In this document: piece by piece, positions 3,966-14,494 of the stretch | Numbering within the stretch: position 1 is the first letter of the stretch | Layout: each line of letters starts with the position of its first letter | NCBI GenBank assembly: GCA_030044045.1 | Contig: JASHWO010000006.1 | Coordinates: 1-16,840 of the forward strand | Direction of reading: 5' to 3' | Length of the DNA: 16,840 bases | From: Acidimicrobiales bacterium | GTDB lineage: Bacteria > Actinomycetota > Acidimicrobiia > Acidimicrobiales > RAAP-2 | Translations under genes and position numbers: made by a program | The notes under the pieces: generated by a model | Databases searched by the model: none | Told to the model about the DNA's origin: nothing | The model's input: only the letters and a program-made list of their open reading frames with translations

Positions 3966-4105
3966 CAGCGGTCACCATAGGTCCCAGTGACCCAGGCAGG
4001 GCGGAACCCGGGCACGCAGGTTGGCCGCGGCCACAGGTGGCGCCGGCAGCGAGCCTTACCAGCGGTTGGTACCGGCAAGCCACCCTTGAAGGTTCGCTTC
4101 GATGA

Positions 4106-4429
4106 CTACGCCTCTGGGACACCCCAGACAACGCGATACCGATTGACGGCCGCCCGCTCAAGCTGCAGGTACGGCGGGCGCCGGGCCGGCCGGGTCATCC
4201 GCGACATCGTGTGGGCGATCGTCGCCCGGGACCAGCGGGATCCGGACGAGGCCATCGCCGCATGGACCGCCTTCACGGTGAGCACCGGCCCTCCCCCACC
4301 GGCGGCCAGCGCCTCGACGGCCGCGGCCACGTCGTCCCGGCAGGTGGCGACGCCGGGCTTCCGCTCCCCACGTAGATCGGCGGCCCGGCGATCGTCAGGC
4401 GCCGTTGGCCATTCGAGGCACCACCACCA
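4106..4429 (-). pseudogene. Frameshifted copy of the small winged-helix-like gene (copy A)
   Basis: The C-terminal part (RKPGVATCRDDVAAAVEALA, continuing through a TVKAVHAAM segment to LERAAVNRYRVV) closely matches the intact copy at 6703-7044. The N-terminal part (GGGASNGQRRLTIAGPPIYV) is also present but in another frame. Copy A has one base fewer in the C/G run near 4371-4376 than copy B near 6963-6970, which shifts the frame between the two halves. The open frame to 4444 therefore starts with unrelated residues. I treat it as a decayed paralogue. A sequencing error in the run is possible and would restore the gene. Confidence 0.7.
4126..4429. repeat. ~305-bp direct repeat, copy A
   Basis: This stretch aligns with 6723-7027 in the same orientation, with scattered substitutions and a single one-base indel (I judge roughly 90% identity by eye). 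Homology fades outside these limits. It contains most of the small winged-helix-like coding region and no terminal inverted repeats, so it resembles a duplicated gene segment rather than an insertion sequence. The AbiE operon at 4557-6541 lies between the two copies. Confidence 0.85.
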
Positions 4430-4556: not shown

Positions 4557-5732
4557 TCAGAACTCGATCCGGTACTTGGGGGTGAACTGGGTGGCCGTCG
4601 GTCGGATGCGTGCGATCCGGTCGACTCGGTAGCTTCGCAGCGCTCCGTGGTCGTTCGCGACGAACAGGACGATGTTGCCGTCTTGGGTTCGCCGGAGGGA
4701 GTACGGCTCCACGAGACGTGGTCCCTGCCTCCCCAGTTCCGCTCGGTAGTCGACCTCGACCATGAGCCGGTTCGCGCCGGCGTAGCGCAGTAGCTCGAGG
4801 GGAACCCGTCGGCGCCACGACGTGATCGCCTTCGGCGCCTCCCAGGCGGCGTCGAGCTTCCCGCGCTGAGCCCGGGGAAGCACCGGCGTCCGGAGCGTGC
4901 CGGCAAGCCAGGAGAAGACGTCGTCGAGACTGGCCCAGAACCCCTCGAAGGGGACGAGCGGCTGGGGCAGCTGATGCCCGAGCATGTTCTCCCACTCGCT
5001 CTCGATCTCGGCCCGGAACGGCGAGGAGCGGACGGTCTCCGCGGTCGGCACCTCGATGCCGGCGTGGGCGCACTTTCGTTCGAGCACACGGCGTACGTCC
5101 CGGTCGAGACCGATGAGATCCGGGTGGCGGTGCATATGGACGACGTCGTAGAGATCGCGTGGGCGGCAACGCTCGGCGAGCGCCCGGAGCTTCTCGCCGA
5201 ACAGCTCGGCAATGGAGTAGCAGAGCACGCCCTCGACGGCGAGCCGGTCGCTGTACGGATGTCCGATCCGGCGGAGCACAGGGCGGTCGACCAGGACCTC
5301 GTCGGCGGTGAGGTCGAGCTTCACCCTGGGCATCGTCGGGTTGCCGTTCGGCCCCCGATAGGCAATCCGCGCCTGGGCCGTGGGGTTTCCCCGTTTGTTG
5401 CGCATGCGCCGGAAGGACTTGTCATCGAGGACCAGCTCGATACCGGACTCCTCCCGTACCCATCCGGCGATCTCCTCGAAGATGGGCATCAGTGCGTCGG
5501 GCTCTTCGGGCCCACCGTCGACGATGGTGAAGTCGAGGTCCTCGGAGAACCGGAACGTCTCGTAGTAGCACTTGCGGAGGCACGTGCCCCCCTTGAAGAT
5601 CCAGGTGCGGCGCAGCTCGGCATGGTTGGCGATGCCGGCGAGGAGCCATCCGAGGACGTAGTCCTTCTCGATGACGCCCTGGTCGAGCGTCCATTCGGCC
5701 CGCAGCGCGGCGAGCTCCCGTTGGGGGATCAC
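4557..5732 (-). CDS. abiEii: AbiEii-family nucleotidyltransferase toxin with WYL-like C-terminal domain
   Basis: 391 aa from GTG 5732. The nucleotidyltransferase core is at the N-terminus: FKGGT-CLRK (46-54) is the GG-containing motif, and FSEDLDF (62-68) carries the two metal-binding aspartates D65 and D67. GEKLRALAERCRPRDLYD (179-196) is the later Lys/Arg-Asp motif of AbiEii/MenT enzymes. Such toxins transfer nucleotides, on to tRNA or other targets, and halt growth on phage infection. Residues about 310-391 form a second domain (LELLRYAGANRLMVEVDY, then LVEPYSLRR and SYRVDRIARIR) that looks like a WYL fold; typical AbiEii proteins are nearer 300 aa. The GTG overlaps the antitoxin stop as GTGA, so the two genes are coupled. 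A longer open frame to 6398 is only the antitoxin gene read in another frame. The family is firm; WYL is inferred from sequence pattern. Confidence 0.9.
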   Translation of the reverse strand: MIPQRELAALRAEWTLDQGVIEKDYVLGWLLAGIANHAELRRTWIFKGGTCLRKCYYETFRFSEDLDFTIVDGGPEEPDALMPIFEEIAGWVREESGIELVLDDKSFRRMRNKRGNPTAQARIAYRGPNGNPTMPRVKLDLTADEVLVDRPVLRRIGHPYSDRLAVEGVLCYSIAELFGEKLRALAERCRPRDLYDVVHMHRHPDLIGLDRDVRRVLERKCAHAGIEVPTAETVRSSPFRAEIESEWENMLGHQLPQPLVPFEGFWASLDDVFSWLAGTLRTPVLPRAQRGKLDAAWEAPKAITSWRRRVPLELLRYAGANRLMVEVDYRAELGRQGPRLVEPYSLRRTQDGNIVLFVANDHGALRSYRVDRIARIRPTATQFTPKYRIEF

Positions 5733-6541
5733 GACGCACCCTCCTGGACCACGGCCACGTTCACCCGTAGTCCCCACCTCATGGCTCGACGGCCTCCGGA
5801 CGGTCCGTCGGGGTCGAGGTTCGAGATACCGGACGACACGCGCTCCTCGCATGCCGACAGGAGCTCCGGCTGGTCGAAGCCGAGGGCCTCCACGAGGTAG
5901 CCGAGCCGCTTGAACACCGCGCCGTTCCCGAGTCGATCGCCGGCGGCGACCACCAGCGTCGGGTCGTACTCGTCGAGGTAGGCCCCGAGCACGTCGGCGA
6001 CGTGGCGGATGCCGCCCCCGATCTTCGGGCGGTCCAAGGTGTCGACCACCGTACGGGCAGGGTCGGCGAAGCGGAGCCGGGCACCGTCCCGCCACTCGCT
6101 CCTCAGCCCCCACGAGAGCAAGCCCAGATCGACGTGCCCGACCAGGTAGTCGTGGTCCAAGAGCCGCACCGCCGCAGTCCGCACCCGCTCGGAAGTCTTG
6201 AGCACCGTCGTACGGAAGACCTGCTCGGTGAGCGCCCAGTGGTGGGCGGCGGTCCAACCGGTGAAGTAGCACGGGCTCCACACCTCGGCTGCGACCACCA
6301 GCGCGTCTTCCGACCACGACGACGGGTTCGGCGCCTCCACCGGCACGCCGATGTACAGGCCCCGCCGCACCCGGCGCACCCAACCGTCCTCGGCCCACCG
6401 GGAGAGCTTCTTCGCCGCCGCGTCCGCGTCGACGCCGAGCGCTTCGACCACGTCAGTGGGCGTGACGAAACGCCGGCCCAACCCGAGCACCGTGGCCAGC
6501 TCGGCGCGGCCCCGGCTGCTGATCCCCGCTGCCTGCGACAT
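5729..6541 (-). CDS. abiEi: AbiEi-family antitoxin/transcriptional repressor
   Basis: 270 aa. An N-terminal winged helix at about residues 12-64 (TPTDVVEALGVDADAAAKKL, with a wing of the form RRVRRGLYIG) is followed by the AbiEi core, recognisable by CYFTGWTAAHHWALTEQ and by VLKTSERVRTAAVRLL. AbiEi proteins neutralise the nucleotidyltransferase toxin without tight binding (type IV) and repress their own promoter through the winged helix. The ATG at 6541 has GGAG five bases upstream. The gene precedes and overlaps its toxin. A pair of near-identical motifs flanks the likely promoter just upstream and is a good candidate binding site. Confidence 0.9.
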   Translation of the reverse strand: MSQAAGISSRGRAELATVLGLGRRFVTPTDVVEALGVDADAAAKKLSRWAEDGWVRRVRRGLYIGVPVEAPNPSSWSEDALVVAAEVWSPCYFTGWTAAHHWALTEQVFRTTVLKTSERVRTAAVRLLDHDYLVGHVDLGLLSWGLRSEWRDGARLRFADPARTVVDTLDRPKIGGGIRHVADVLGAYLDEYDPTLVVAAGDRLGNGAVFKRLGYLVEALGFDQPELLSACEERVSSGISNLDPDGPSGGRRAMRWGLRVNVAVVQEGAS

Positions 6542-6639: not shown

Positions 6640-6702
6640 GACAGATACCGCGCCCTGGGACGTCGCGAGCCCGGGCGACGGCCGGCATCGGCCGACCCGT
6701 GC

Positions 6703-7044
6703 CTACCCCCGACGGGCATCCCGGACGACCCGGTACCGGTTGACGGCCGCCCGCTCGAGCTGCAGGTACGGCGGCCGCCGTGCCGGGCGGGTCATCCGCG
6801 ACATCGTGTGGGCGACCGTCGCCCGGGACCAGCGGGATCCAGACGAGGCCATCGCCGCGTGGACCGCCTTCACGGTGAGCACCGGCCCTCCCCCACCGGC
6901 GACCAGCGCCTCGACGGCTGCGGCCGCGTCGTCCCGGCAGGTGGCATGGCCGGGCTTCCGCTCCCCCAGGTAGATCGGCTGCCCGGCGATCGTCAGGCGA
7001 CGTTGGCCGTTCGAGGCACCTCCACCAGCTGGCGTTAGCGACAC
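6703..7044 (-). CDS. Small winged-helix-like protein (intact copy B)
   Basis: 113 aa with no family name I can give. The N-terminus is Gly-rich and includes the phrase RRLTIAGQPIYLGE. The main body (RDDAAAAVEALVAGGGGPVL, then TVKAVHAAM, a serine-rich turn leading into TVAHTMSRM, and PYLQLERAAVNRYRVV) has the helix-helix-helix-strand rhythm of a compact winged helix: a T-V-K-x-V helix, an S-R-A-T-V-x-x-x-M recognition-type helix, then a YLQLER...NRYRV wing. It could bind DNA. The start is uncertain; GTG 7044 is the longest. The gene lies 160 bp upstream of the AbiE-1 antitoxin on the same strand and is duplicated, with a frameshift, beyond the toxin. Its role in the island is unknown, possibly a regulator left from recombination. 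Confidence 0.6.
   Translation of the reverse strand: MSLTPAGGGASNGQRRLTIAGQPIYLGERKPGHATCRDDAAAAVEALVAGGGGPVLTVKAVHAAMASSGSRWSRATVAHTMSRMTRPARRPPYLQLERAAVNRYRVVRDARRG
6723..7027. repeat. ~305-bp direct repeat, copy B
   Basis: Same orientation as the copy at 4126-4429. It starts near a shared GGAC/AGAC block before TTGACGGCCGCCCGCTC and ends at the GGCACC-CCACCA run. It holds the undamaged reading frame, having one base more than copy A in the C/G run near 6963-6970. Confidence 0.85.
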
Positions 7045-9501: not shown

Positions 9502-10095
9502 GTGGACGTCTTCGAGCTGCGTGACTCGGTTATCGAGGACTACCAGCGCTTCATCCAGGGCTTTCTCCACATCCGCGACAAGCGGGTCCGTGGCGTCGTC
9601 GAGGAGACCCTGGCCGACGGGCTGCTGTGGCCTGAGCCGTGGCTGAGCCTGAACCCGAAGTTCACCGTCAGTGGCACCGTGGACGAGCTGGCCGATACGG
9701 GGCTACTCGACGCCGAGTGCAAGCGGGTGTTCCGGATCGGCAAGGAGGCCGACCCCAGCGGTACGGGGTCGCCGCTCTCCCTCTACCGCCATCAGGTCGA
9801 GGCGATCGAGGCAGCTCGGGCGGCCGACAACTACGTGCTCACGACCGGGACCGGGTCGGGCAAGAGCCTCGCCTACATCGTCCCGATCGTCGACCTGGTG
9901 TCCGCCGGCTCCGGCCGGCACTTCGACGAGGACGACGTGGCCTGGGCCGAGCAGCTGGCCGCCACCCTGATGGCCGGCTCCGTCACGGGCTGGCCGCCCT
10001 GCTCTGCGAGGACCCCTCCCCCGCGCCGGCCATCGACCGGCTGCGGGAGTTCACGCACCGTTCGGGCACGAGCCGGTTGGCCACCGTCCTGGTGA
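9502..10095 (+). pseudogene. 5' fragment of a large DEAD/DEAH-box helicase, truncated after motif I
   Basis: Residues 1 to about 139 resemble the N-terminus of large DEAD/DEAH helicases found in defence loci: LRDSVIEDYQRFIQGFLHI, LWPEPWLSLNPKF, TVDELADTGLL, then LYRHQVEAI, and Walker A TTGTGSGKS at 114-122, followed by LAYIVPIVDLV. Homology stops near nucleotide 9,920. The full enzymes run to 1,000 residues or more with motifs II-VI and often a C-terminal DUF1998 domain, all missing here. The open frame continues to 10095 only as out-of-frame reading of the phosphatase remnant. The protein cannot be an active helicase. It marks the right edge of the island, where a deletion or insertion joined it to other DNA. 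Confidence 0.8.
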
Positions 10096-10468
10096 CGACC
10101 GTCGACCTGGCCCGGGGCACGGCCCGCATGGCGTCGGCCGGCCACCCGCCCCGGTGCTCCGCCGGCCCGGTCACAGGTCGACCCTGGTGCCGGTCACCCT
10201 GGTCCGGCCGCTCGGGATCTGCACCGACGAGGCCACGGAGACCTCGGTCACGTGCGCCGGCTCGCTCCTGGTCATGGTCACCGACGGCCTGCTCGAACAG
10301 ATCCGCAGCACGCTCGACGACCGCCTCGGGCTCCTGGTCTCGGCGGCCGATGCCGCACCGGGCGCGGCCGGCAGCACCTGTGACTACGTTCTCGACCGGA
10401 TACTCGGCACGGCGGCGCCCCTCGACGACGTGGCCATCATCGGCGCCCTGGTGGGCCAGCGCACCTAA
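9984..10468 (+). pseudogene. 3' remnant of a SpoIIE/RsbU-type PP2C phosphatase, frameshifted
   Basis: From about 9984 a second frame reads LAALLCEDPSPAPAIDRL, then TSRLATVLVTTVDLARG, then MASAGHPP, the late part of a SpoIIE-type phosphatase. Near 10,150 the frame must change by one base, after which it reads VLRRPGHRSTLVPVTLVRPL, then LLVMVTDGLLEQI (the TDG metal motif) and PLDDVAIIGALV (final Asp motif), to TAA 10468. About the first half of the catalytic domain and any sensor domain are missing. RsbU-type phosphatases dephosphorylate STAS anti-anti-sigma factors; the STAS and RsbW-like genes lie directly opposite. The single-base shift in CCCGCCCCGG could be a sequencing error, but the 5' truncation is not explained that way. 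The ~60 bp between helicase and phosphatase homology are of unclear origin. Confidence 0.78.
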
Positions 10469-10947
10469 CGTGCCGGGCCGCTCGCCTGGGCTCCCGGCCC
10501 GGCACGATCGTGGTGGCCCGGCGCGGCGGCGTCGGCGGCGAGCAGTTCGAACCAGACCTCCTTGACCCTGCCGGTCGAATGGGCTCCCCAGCAGGTCGAG
10601 AGGGCATCCACGATGGAGATGCCGCGACCGTGCTCGCGGGTGAGGCTCTGGCCCAGGACCCGCGGCATGGCGGTGCTGGCGTCGGCCACCGACACCCGGA
10701 GGCGGTCGTCGACGAGGTCGAAGGTGATCGCGCAGGGTTCGTGGCCGTGGACCACGGCGTTCGTGACGAGCTCGTCGGTCAGCAGGGCTGCCGTCTCGAC
10801 GAAGCGCTCGTCGCACCCGTCGAGGAGACCCCGGACGGCCTCCCGAACACGCCCCACCGACTGGGTGTCGCTCCCAAACCGCATGACCGTGTGCTTGCTC
10901 AGGCCCACGTACCGCTCCCGGTCCCCGACCCCGCTTTCCGACCACAC
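10465..10947 (-). CDS. RsbW-like anti-sigma factor / serine-protein kinase (HATPase)
   Basis: 160 aa from GTG 10947. This is a compact GHKL ATPase: N-box ELVTNAVVHG (59-68), VADAS (87-91) in the G1 position, and HGRGISIVDAL (106-116) as the glycine-rich lid. There is no transmembrane or sensor domain. Such proteins bind a stress sigma factor and also phosphorylate a serine in their STAS antagonist. A GTG at codon 14, behind GGGAG, is an equally good start because the domain proper begins at about TVMRFGSD. It is the last gene of the STAS operon. Its stop (TAG) overlaps, tail to tail, the stop of the phosphatase remnant. No sigma factor gene is in the window. Confidence 0.88.
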   Translation of the reverse strand: MWSESGVGDRERYVGLSKHTVMRFGSDTQSVGRVREAVRGLLDGCDERFVETAALLTDELVTNAVVHGHEPCAITFDLVDDRLRVSVADASTAMPRVLGQSLTREHGRGISIVDALSTCWGAHSTGRVKEVWFELLAADAAAPGHHDRAGPGAQASGPAR

Positions 10948-10983
10948 GGTCCCCGCCAGGTCGTCCCGCTCTCTCCGTTCCCG

Positions 10984-11115
10984 TCAGGTGCGGCCGCCAA
11001 ACATCGTCACCCGGCGGGCGAACGCATGGTCCACCTCGCCCAGCTGCTCGGCCATCGGCGCGTCCCCGTCGCCGGCGGTGGCGTCGATCGACGCGAGGGT
11101 GACGGCGTCGGTCAC
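10984..11115 (-). CDS. 43-aa small ORF between the STAS and RsbW-like genes
   Basis: Starts at a GTG that overlaps the STAS stop as GTGA and ends at TGA 10986-10984, 36 bp before the kinase gene. The product is soluble and partly acidic (VTDAVTLASIDATAGDGDAP, then AEQLGEVDHAF and a basic end RRVTMFGGRT). The tight overlap and the intact frame suggest it is translated, but I know no family for it. It might tune the partner switch, or merely bridge ribosomes between genes. Confidence 0.45.
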   Translation of the reverse strand: MTDAVTLASIDATAGDGDAPMAEQLGEVDHAFARRVTMFGGRT

Positions 11116-11477
11116 GCCGGCTGGAGCGCCGTGTCGAGCGACGAGTGGATGGGGAATACGCTGGTCAGCCCGGTGATCTCAAAGACCCGACGGACCTTCG
11201 ACTCGGCGATGACCAGCCGCAGCTCGCCGCCCTCGTGCCGGCAGCGCCGGGAGGCGCCCACCAGGATCCCCAGCGCCGTCGAGTCCAGGAACGTCACGCC
11301 CAGCAGGTCCACCACCATGTGCGGATGCCCGGCCAGCTGGAGGTCGTGCAGCCGCTGGCGCAGCTCAGGCGCGGTGACGGCGTCGACCTCCCCGGAGACC
11401 CGCAGGATGGGGATGTCACCCTCCGTCCCGCCGAAGTCGATCGTGCTGTGCGCATCGGTGCTGTATCCATCGCTCAT
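11112..11477 (-). CDS. STAS-domain anti-sigma factor antagonist (RsbV/SpoIIAA-like)
   Basis: 121 aa, almost all one STAS domain. ILRVSGEVDAVTAPELRQRL (24-43) is the first strand-helix pair. VDLLGVTFLDSTALGILVGA (56-75) contains the DSTAL motif with the phosphorylatable Ser66. GELRLVIAESKVRRVFEITG follows. When unphosphorylated it binds the anti-sigma kinase and frees sigma; phosphorylation by the RsbW-like kinase turns it off, and an RsbU-type phosphatase turns it on. The ATG at 11477 is chosen because of GAGGAGG seven bases upstream; readings up to 11651 extend into non-coding leader. First gene of the operon, behind a SigB/SigF-type promoter. Confidence 0.93.
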   Translation of the reverse strand: MSDGYSTDAHSTIDFGGTEGDIPILRVSGEVDAVTAPELRQRLHDLQLAGHPHMVVDLLGVTFLDSTALGILVGASRRCRHEGGELRLVIAESKVRRVFEITGLTSVFPIHSSLDTALQPA

Positions 11478-11893
11478 GGCCGTGCCTCCTCGGGGACCGG
11501 CTCCCATCGGCCCGACCGCCCCAGGGCCTCGACGCCCTCCCCGCCGGTGGCGCTCGCCGGCCGCTGGCCCGGCGGGCCGGCACCGTGGAGACCGTTCGGA
11601 GCGCTTGGCCGCTCGTCGTGGGGGTATGTACCCGGCAGGGGTGCCGTGCAAACGGCCGGGGGCTCATCCCAGCCCTCGAGCGGCCTGGGCGCACTCGGCT
11701 GGCCCCTGGCCGGCGCCGGCATCGGCTTCGATCGCCCTCGCCCCGGTCACCTCGACGGTCCTGACGGAACCCCGCTGAACCTGTGCCCGCTCGCCTTGGG
11801 ACCTTCGGCACTGGACCGACCGGGCGCCGGCCCGCACAATCGTCCCAGGGCCGCCGGTCGGCAACCGGTTACGGGCGGGCGGCGGGAGGTGCG
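11478..11893. other. Divergent intergenic region between the STAS operon and the kinase-family gene
   Basis: About 415 bp of very GC-rich DNA with no gene I can defend; open frames on both strands are Arg/Pro/Gly-rich shadows. The left part is the ~140-nt leader of the STAS transcript, and the SigB/SigF-type promoter lies at 11628-11653. I see no clear housekeeping promoter for the rightward gene. Confidence 0.6.
11628..11653 (-). promoter_or_regulatory. SigB/SigF-type promoter of the STAS operon
   Basis: On the minus strand GTTT (11653-11650) and GGGTAC (11633-11628) are separated by exactly 16 bases, matching the GTTT-N14-17-GGGTA consensus of actinobacterial and Bacillus general-stress sigma factors. 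Transcription would start near 11620, giving a leader of about 140 nt before the STAS ATG. It fits the usual arrangement in which the sigma factor activates its own regulators. Confidence 0.7.
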
Positions 11894-11977
11894 ATGGACG
11901 GCACGACGGTCGGCCGGGGGTCCGAGCCCGGCGCGGCGCCCCCCAGGACGGCCCGCCGCGCCGGTACCGGCCCCTGA
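11894..11977 (+). CDS. 27-aa upstream ORF coupled to the kinase-family gene
   Basis: ATG 11894 stands behind a strong GGGAGGT site and reads MDGTTVGRGSEPGAAPP and 10 more residues to TGA 11975-11977. That TGA shares its A with the ATG of the next gene (TGATG). The next gene lacks its own ribosome site, so translation of this short frame probably delivers ribosomes to it. The peptide itself shows no domain. Confidence 0.45.
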   Translation: MDGTTVGRGSEPGAAPPRTARRAGTGP

Positions 11978-13441: not shown

Positions 13442-14470
13442 CTACGACGAAGCGCCGCCCCCTGGCAAGCCGGCACCGTTGGTGGCCGCCGCGCCGGCTC
13501 CGCCGGACCCGCCGCCGGCGGCCTTCAGGGCTTCGACCAATACCCCGGCCCCGCCGGCCAGGCCCGCCGCCTCGTAGGGGACCACCAGCTTGGCGTTCGG
13601 CGCCGAGGCGACGTCCTGGAGGGCGCGAAGCTGCAGCACGGCCAGGGTGTTCGGGTGGATGGTCGCCTGGTCGATAGCGGTGAGCGCTGCCGCCTCGCCC
13701 TCGCCCCGCAGCAGGCGCGCCTTCTTCTCGCCCTCGGCCTGCAGCTCCAGGGCCTTCATCTGAGCCTCCGCCGCCAGGATGACGGCGGCCTTGGCGCCCT
13801 CGGCCTCCAGCACGGCCGCCTGCTTGCGGCCGCCGGCGCTGTTGACCGCCGCCTGCTGCTCGCCCTCCGACTTCAAGATGGCCGCCCGCTTGTGCTGCTC
13901 GGCCTCCTTCTGTTCGGACATGGCCTGCAGCACGTTGTTCGGCGGGGTGATGTCGAGGATCTCGATCCGGTTCAGCCGCACGCCCCACTTCATGGCGGCG
14001 TCGGCCATGTGGTCCTGCATGCGGGTGTTGATGGTCTCCCGCTCGGAGAGCGACTGGTCCAGGGTGAGCTCGCCGAAGACCGCCCGCAGGGCCGTCCGGG
14101 AGAGCTGGTCCACGGCCAGCGAGTAGTCGGCGATCTCGAACAGCGCCGCCTTCACGTCGATGACCTGGCAGAAGATGGTGGCACTGACCCAGAGCGACAC
14201 ATTGTCCTTGGTGATGACCGCCTGCTGGTCGCCGGTCATCGGGAACTCCCGCATGTCCACCTTTGTCATGCGGTCGACGAAGGGCATCAACACGTGGAGC
14301 CCGGGCTGGCGCACCGCCTGGAACCGGCCCACCCGCTTGACCACCCCCACGCTCCCCTGCTGGACGATCTTGACCGCCCGCCCGAAGAGGTAGAGCGCCA
14401 ACAGGACGACGGCCGCCACGACCACGATCGCCACGACCACGGCGGCTCCGGTTCCGGCACTGGCAAGCAT
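13442..14470 (-). CDS. SPFH/Band 7 (stomatin/QmcA-like) membrane scaffold protein
   Basis: 342 aa from ATG 14470, preferred over ATG 14485 because AGGGGAG sits seven bases before it. A single N-terminal membrane segment (AAVVVAIVVVAAVVLLALYL) is followed by the SPFH core: VQQGSVGVVKRVGRF, then QPGLHVLMPFVDRM and DNVSLWVSATIFCQVID. RIEILDITPPNNVLQAM comes next, then a long Ala/Glu/Gln/Lys coiled coil (EQKEAEQHKRAAILKSEGEQ onward), ending in a Gly/Ala-rich tail. These proteins oligomerise at the membrane, organise microdomains and often modulate proteases. The NfeD-like gene lies just upstream on the same strand, the common NfeD-SPFH operon. Substitutions at key positions are not evident. Confidence 0.93.
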   Translation of the reverse strand: MLASAGTGAAVVVAIVVVAAVVLLALYLFGRAVKIVQQGSVGVVKRVGRFQAVRQPGLHVLMPFVDRMTKVDMREFPMTGDQQAVITKDNVSLWVSATIFCQVIDVKAALFEIADYSLAVDQLSRTALRAVFGELTLDQSLSERETINTRMQDHMADAAMKWGVRLNRIEILDITPPNNVLQAMSEQKEAEQHKRAAILKSEGEQQAAVNSAGGRKQAAVLEAEGAKAAVILAAEAQMKALELQAEGEKKARLLRGEGEAAALTAIDQATIHPNTLAVLQLRALQDVASAPNAKLVVPYEAAGLAGGAGVLVEALKAAGGGSGGAGAAATNGAGLPGGGASS

Positions 14471-14494
14471 GGGCACTCCCCTCATCGGTTGTCG

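Follow-up and report, generated by a model that had tools for sequence, protein, structure and literature searches.

In the window analysed here, a 16,840-nucleotide stretch of an Acidimicrobiales bacterium (contig JASHWO010000006.1 of assembly GCA_030044045.1), a truncated gene for a defence helicase, which lies at one edge of a defence island, runs directly into the broken gene of a GAF-SpoIIE (RsbU-like) phosphatase. We consider it rather probable that a deletion brought the 5′ end of the YprA/DruE-like helicase gene up against the GAF domain of the phosphatase gene, that the ancestral phosphatase gene lay tail-to-tail with an RsbW-like kinase gene, and that a further internal loss of about 86 codons together with two frame changes finished the phosphatase. 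What would be left is a STAS–kinase pair without a neighbouring phosphatase; such a pair might depend on another of the cell's SpoIIE proteins, or its antagonist might be mostly phosphorylated and the sigma factor, which is not encoded in the window, held back. The locus looks like ordinary gene decay, an ordinary pseudogene with tidy anatomy. Anatomically it is a clear example of a break at a defence-island edge in which a defence helicase and a signalling phosphatase were both lost. It also led to intact counterparts in relatives, namely kinase–STAS–sigma clusters and multi-sensor phosphatases, some of the latter facing a kinase.

The helicase side of the junction (9502–9894, + strand) holds the first approximately 131 of about 1,715 residues of a YprA/DruE-like DEAD/DEAH defence helicase, as judged from the starts of its relatives and from PADLOC. 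The stump shares 51% identity over 9502–9915 with a 1,715-aa helicase of a Rhodococcus plasmid and 50% over 9502–9900 with a 1,741-aa helicase of a Nocardioides plasmid; it matches PADLOC DruE4 at 1.6e-13 and Pfam DEAD at E = 1.8e-5, with 25.0 bits, slightly below the 26-bit cut-off. Missing from the window are more than 1,580 helicase codons and both partner genes: the genes that follow the intact Rhodococcus and Nocardioides helicases, a helicase-related gene and then a DNA methyltransferase, are absent after the window stump, and the helicase start alone is present. PADLOC 2023 assigns the Rhodococcus helicase as DruE-like and its neighbour (the second gene of L153) as DpdE-like, and the Nocardioides helicase is preceded by DISARM genes. 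According to a preprint (PMC12458937), the ARMADA Type I gene order is helicase, second helicase and DNA methyltransferase; the stump resembles this system in matching the start of plasmid helicases that stand in Type I order, and differs from it in that only about 131 residues are kept and the other two genes are absent. An ARMADA label for the stump would derive from the gene order of its relatives; PADLOC calls the stump itself DruE-like.

On the other side, alignment with relatives demonstrated that helicase homology and GAF homology abut at approximately 9895, where phosphatase homology begins in the helicase frame. The first phosphatase piece (9895–9966, +), recognized by ORF ranking and by alignment with four relatives, is the end of a GAF domain. 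The translation of 9895–9963 in the helicase frame, LVSAGSGRHFDEDDVAWAEQLAA, resembles the GAF end of GAF-SpoIIE relatives, which supplied the four top-ranked records (two proteins, each present twice) among 12,446 ORFs, at E values of 5.9e-5 to 4.5e-4; against Pfam GAF_2 alone, the same piece gave E = 0.11. A 29-residue stretch that contains this piece and six residues of the helicase end is 62% identical to L156, and the window reads LVSAGSGRH where the four aligned relatives (L155, L156, L202 and L205) read LVSAGSGRR. The preliminary description had placed the end of the helicase near 9,920, followed by about 60 bp and then the phosphatase in another frame. The abutment of defence-gene DNA and phosphatase is confirmed, with the helicase N-terminus ending near 9,895, but the spacer is ruled out, being itself the GAF end. 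The helicase–GAF fusion forms an in-frame ORF of 197 aa (9502–10095). That a single deletion removed a defence operon and a stress-response phosphatase, with selection against the one thereby rewiring the other, and that the hybrid helicase–GAF small protein may even be expressed, is in our view a very long shot.

Two further pieces complete the remnant. The middle of the SpoIIE/PPM domain lies in a second frame (9975–10148, +; collinear with L155 and L156 from residues 771 and 764, respectively), and its last part lies in a third frame with its 3′ end and stop codon intact (10148–10468, +; collinear with L155 828–928 and L156 834–921). Pfam SpoIIE (PF07228) is matched by both, at 1.2e-6 over 9984–10160 (profile 32–84; 29.0 bits) and at 9.6e-8 over 10154–10468 (profile 87–187; 32.6 bits), each above the 25-bit cut-off. 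All three pieces are collinear with L155 and L156, with matches that run from 9895, resume at 9975 for the second piece and end at 10447 for the third; within a 1.1-kb target, the two SpoIIE pieces matched at E values of 1.8e-18 (L155) and 7.1e-17 (L156) and the GAF piece at 1.6e-6 (L155) and 4.6e-7 (L156). In place of the single one-base shift described previously, two frame changes separate the pieces, near 9,972 and 10,150.

A complete PF07228 catalytic domain in one frame does not occur here: in addition to the frame changes, approximately 86 residues are absent between the GAF and middle pieces, comprising the linker and the opening third of the phosphatase domain, together with the GGDWYD and GDVxGH stretches. 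The lost aspartates of the PPM domain bind metal. With these motifs and the linker gone and the remainder in separate frames, no working PPM phosphatase is expected, and the destruction of the phosphatase gene that had been proposed is borne out; compared with intact homologues, the gene is truncated and changes frame, which makes it a pseudogene. In PMC12143880, RsbU activation is located in the linker and the adjoining switch element, so control at this level would be lost here irrespective of frame. The same paper describes GAF/PAS-sensor PPM phosphatases (Clostridioides difficile RsbZ, Streptomyces coelicolor OsaC and Mycobacterium tuberculosis Rv1364c) whose sensors are N-terminal to the SpoIIE/PPM domain, as they are in L155, L156 and L202; the window copy differs in that its sensors, its linker and the beginning of its PPM domain are gone, and L155 and L156 differ in carrying an N-terminal HATPase.

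We weighed whether the junction or the frame changes might be assembly or sequencing artefacts, which we regard as highly improbable. The kinase entry has one member from one contig, and both frame changes fall in G/C-rich DNA, as this reading would have it. However, elsewhere in the window six genes (cytosine methylase, AbiEi, two AbiEii, SPFH and enoyl-CoA hydratase) are unbroken and near full length, indicating that the frame changes do not reflect a contig-wide error, and an internal loss of about 86 residues is not a base-call error. The GC3 of the SpoIIE pieces (97% and 93%) also argues against an artefact, as it is similar to that of intact genes and of the neighbours on both sides. Their GC2 (62% and 54%, vs 42–52% in the intact genes compared) counts against our preferred reading of the locus. 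Codon-position GC would fit limited decay and gives no date. The event had been called recent: the readable pieces and the preserved GC3 pattern agree with this, but no close intact orthologue was found by which to date it.

Defence-type genes are plentiful in the left part of the window, where an RmrA-like gene, Vsr, a cytosine methyltransferase, a possible restriction enzyme (2.5e-6) and two AbiEi/AbiEii pairs precede the helicase stump. The RmrA-like gene (1–876, −; PADLOC 3.8e-73) is incomplete, as the window begins inside it. A direct repeat of approximately 327 bp (4103–4429 and 6700–7027; two parts, 90% and 92% identical) flanks one AbiEi/AbiEii module (4557–6541) and may mark a duplicated or mobile cassette. 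Both the wealth of defence genes and the repeat, which suggests that modules may move, would suit a different history, in which an island of defence genes inserted into a phosphatase gene that was still intact, with the helicase being trimmed afterwards. We consider this unlikely. The junction falls inside both genes; the approximately 86-residue internal loss and the missing helicase partners would require deletions anyway; and a SpoIIE search of the window gave matches at 9972–10450 alone, with no sign of the phosphatase's left part on the other side of the island. A clean insertion is likewise not favoured, given the truncation of the helicase and the absence of the genes that usually accompany it. 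The preliminary description had allowed for either an island insertion or a deletion. Because helicase and phosphatase are both truncated, the former equally so (about 131 of about 1,715 residues), a fusing deletion fits better, and it would be the simplest cause of the junction.

Facing the remnant on the − strand are an apparently intact RsbW-like kinase gene (10465–10947; Pfam HATPase_c_2, 1.4e-8; start codon uncertain) and an apparently intact STAS anti-sigma-factor antagonist gene (11112–11477; Pfam STAS, 4.9e-22; closest to P0123, 78% identity), a kinase beside an antagonist as in a partner switch. The kinase stop codon (10465–10467) overlaps that of the phosphatase (10466–10468), for which reason the tail-to-tail junction looks native. 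The previously described arrangement of a STAS antagonist and a kinase facing the phosphatase therefore holds, as does that of a SigB/SigF-type promoter before STAS: a pattern scan found GTTT-N16-GGGTAC upstream of the STAS gene (11628–11653, −). This is the sole match in the window to GTTT-N14..17-GGGTAY, which we take to be the SigF/SigB-type promoter consensus, compared with about 0.017 expected (one match in 60 first-order Markov copies), the pattern having been set after a looser scan had already revealed the site. Such a promoter-like site occurs in one of 12 loci of relatives (L142), where it is aimed at a SpoIIE-RsbW fusion gene. A weaker site, GCTT-N15-GGGTAT (11603–11629, +), overlaps the STAS-side site and points to a diacylglycerol-kinase-like (DAGK) gene at 11977. 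Between STAS and kinase lies a 43-codon ORF (10984–11115, −) whose GTG overlaps the STAS stop codon; it had no tblastn match at E ≤ 0.05 in L137–L162.

In a tree of 29 kinases, the window kinase sits with P0003 and P0004 (98/98), the latter at 63% identity, this clade is joined with the sigma-cluster kinases of relatives (90/82), and the L202 kinase branches next outside on a long branch (86/78). Kinase searches returned a match in 13 of 17 genomes, in 51 of 397 genomes of the order at E ≤ 1e-15 and in 5 of 172 genomes of the G003 family at E ≤ 1e-19, with identities of at most 46% among the matches listed.

No sigma match was found among the ORFs of the window, where the gene order is STAS and then kinase; linkage of a SigB/F/G sigma gene to such a pair is common but not obligatory, and its absence here counts against our preferred reading. 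A SigB/F/G-like sigma gene lies within about 0.6 kb of STAS in 16 of 17 STAS loci of relatives, that is, in 14 of 15 distinct STAS loci (the exception being L146) and in L202 and L206; L169–L171 were chosen because a sigma gene was already listed there, and 13 of 14 STAS loci have one when these are set aside. The order kinase–STAS–sigma occurs in six loci (L137–L140, L165 and L166).

The same locus in relatives was approached through the SPFH protein (13442–14485), which is 91% identical to that of L003 over residues 31–321 and 70–85% identical to those of 38 further loci; the 43 SPFH loci thus comprise 39 at 70–91% and four at 38–40%. By title, 28 of the 39 belong to Acidimicrobiaceae or Acidimicrobiales and 11 to 'Actinomycetes bacterium'. 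The host would accordingly be an uncultured lineage allied to these, within or close to the G003 family. NfeD adjoins SPFH at 34 of these 39 loci, with enoyl-CoA hydratase just past it at 12 (one partial). Downstream of SPFH, 6 of 11 inspected loci share some gene with others. None of the 43 loci, many of the 39 ending a few kb from SPFH, gave a DAGK, STAS, kinase or phosphatase match at E ≤ 1e-3. The prediction of an intact phosphatase at the same locus in relatives was accordingly not borne out in the 39 loci with a 70–91% SPFH match, which counts against the deletion account. DAGK searches found matches in 136 of 298 genomes at identities of at most 50%, with no usable synteny around them.

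Intact relatives of the remnant were found elsewhere. The closest are PAS-GAF-GAF-SpoIIE proteins, two of which have an extra N-terminal HATPase: by Pfam, L155 (6127–8925, 933 aa) and L156 (4123–6915, 931 aa) are single HATPase-PAS-GAF-GAF-SpoIIE proteins, a kinase-like domain being joined in one chain to the PAS, two GAF and SpoIIE domains. The GAF-SpoIIE part of L155 is matched at E ≤ 1e-30 in 32 of 172 genomes of the G003 family, and the last phosphatase piece of the window found matches in 12 of 38 genomes, with a best E of 1.6e-6. A set of 5.8 billion proteins yielded 2,539 candidates but none at E ≤ 1e-3, a result that counts against our preferred reading and is a weak test, as the query was the last piece in one frame and the candidates were 274–873 aa long.

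An intact phosphatase gene convergent with an RsbW-like kinase gene had also been predicted for relatives, and this was found in part. Within a flank of about 1.5 kb, a kinase converges on a SpoIIE gene in 3 of 30 loci (L175/L202, L194/L203 and L197/L204), and the others lack the arrangement. In L202, a 743-aa PAS-GAF-GAF-SpoIIE gene faces an RsbW-like kinase at a distance of 421 bp, with STAS–sigma about 6 kb further; it gives the best score seen against the middle piece (41.5 bits) and a weak one against the last (13.6). In the more distant L203 and L204 (PAS-GAF-SpoIIE), the SpoIIE and kinase open frames end 16 bp apart, and their kinases match the window kinase weakly (5e-10 and 1e-8) and form a separate branch of the tree.

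That the lost phosphatase once served the STAS–kinase pair of the window is what we infer. An alternative accepts the loss and disputes only the partnership, so that it overlaps our preferred reading: the phosphatase would have been one of several multi-sensor phosphatases and never the dedicated activator of the pair, and its loss would have had little specific effect. We give this a substantial chance, somewhat short of even. It is favoured by the closest type to the remnant, L155 and L156, which lies near neither STAS nor sigma in G015 and G016, and by the SpoIIE genes of sigma loci, which match the remnant less: L167 scored 33.2 summed bits, L168 31.1, the L171 gene (L198) 22.6 and the L169 gene (L200) 19.6, vs 76.4–84.0 for the L155/L156 type. 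These genes come from L166–L171, where a SpoIIE gene lies 7–11 kb beyond STAS–sigma on the same strand; five of the six loci were fetched because SpoIIE and sigma were both already listed there, and the scores cover the SpoIIE genes of L167, L168, L169 and L171. Orthology of the remnant with the near-sigma phosphatases of relatives is not favoured, their scores being lower where scored. Also in line with a non-dedicated phosphatase, 14 of the 17 close genomes, whose completeness is unstated for each, carry 1–11 strong SpoIIE matches (E ≤ 1e-16). Against it stand the overlap of the phosphatase stop codon with that of the kinase, the convergent kinases of L202, L203 and L204, the GAF-SpoIIE gene that in L206 immediately precedes STAS and sigma on their strand, and three genomes (G003, G011 and G014) with one weak C-terminal SpoIIE match each and no strong one; when weak matches are included, 17 of 17 genomes have 1–12. 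A SigBFG match above the cut-off occurs in 13 of the 17, G003 not being among them.

Returning to the reading in which the phosphatase faced its own kinase, it is plausible that the pair lost its dedicated activator. A resulting change in basal stress-sigma activity, as put forward in the preliminary description, is speculation, because the window shows no sigma gene and other phosphatases are present in most close genomes: with strong matches in 14 of 17, one loss need not change basal sigma activity. The weak matches of G003, G011 and G014 leave room for the earlier view in G003, the closest genome by SPFH.

Natural rsbU lesions are described in PMC10135042 for SigB-deficient Staphylococcus aureus. 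The rsbU-defective strains treated there (NCTC 8325 lineage, V8) resemble the window in having lost an RsbU-type phosphatase through a natural lesion, with kinase and antagonist still in place; they differ in that the SigB defect was measured and the sigB operon is canonical, whereas the window offers genes alone, no sigma in view and a lesion that fuses the phosphatase to a defence gene. Provided that the phosphatase was the only activator of the pair, this lineage would represent a naturally occurring equivalent of the rsbU-defective S. aureus strains.

SpoIIE and RsbW are joined in single genes in two relatives, L141 (6022–9774) and L142 (7765–12717), with open frames of 1,251 and 1,651 aa that are divergent from a STAS–sigma pair; against the remnant, these fusions scored 35.8 and 31.1 bits, respectively.
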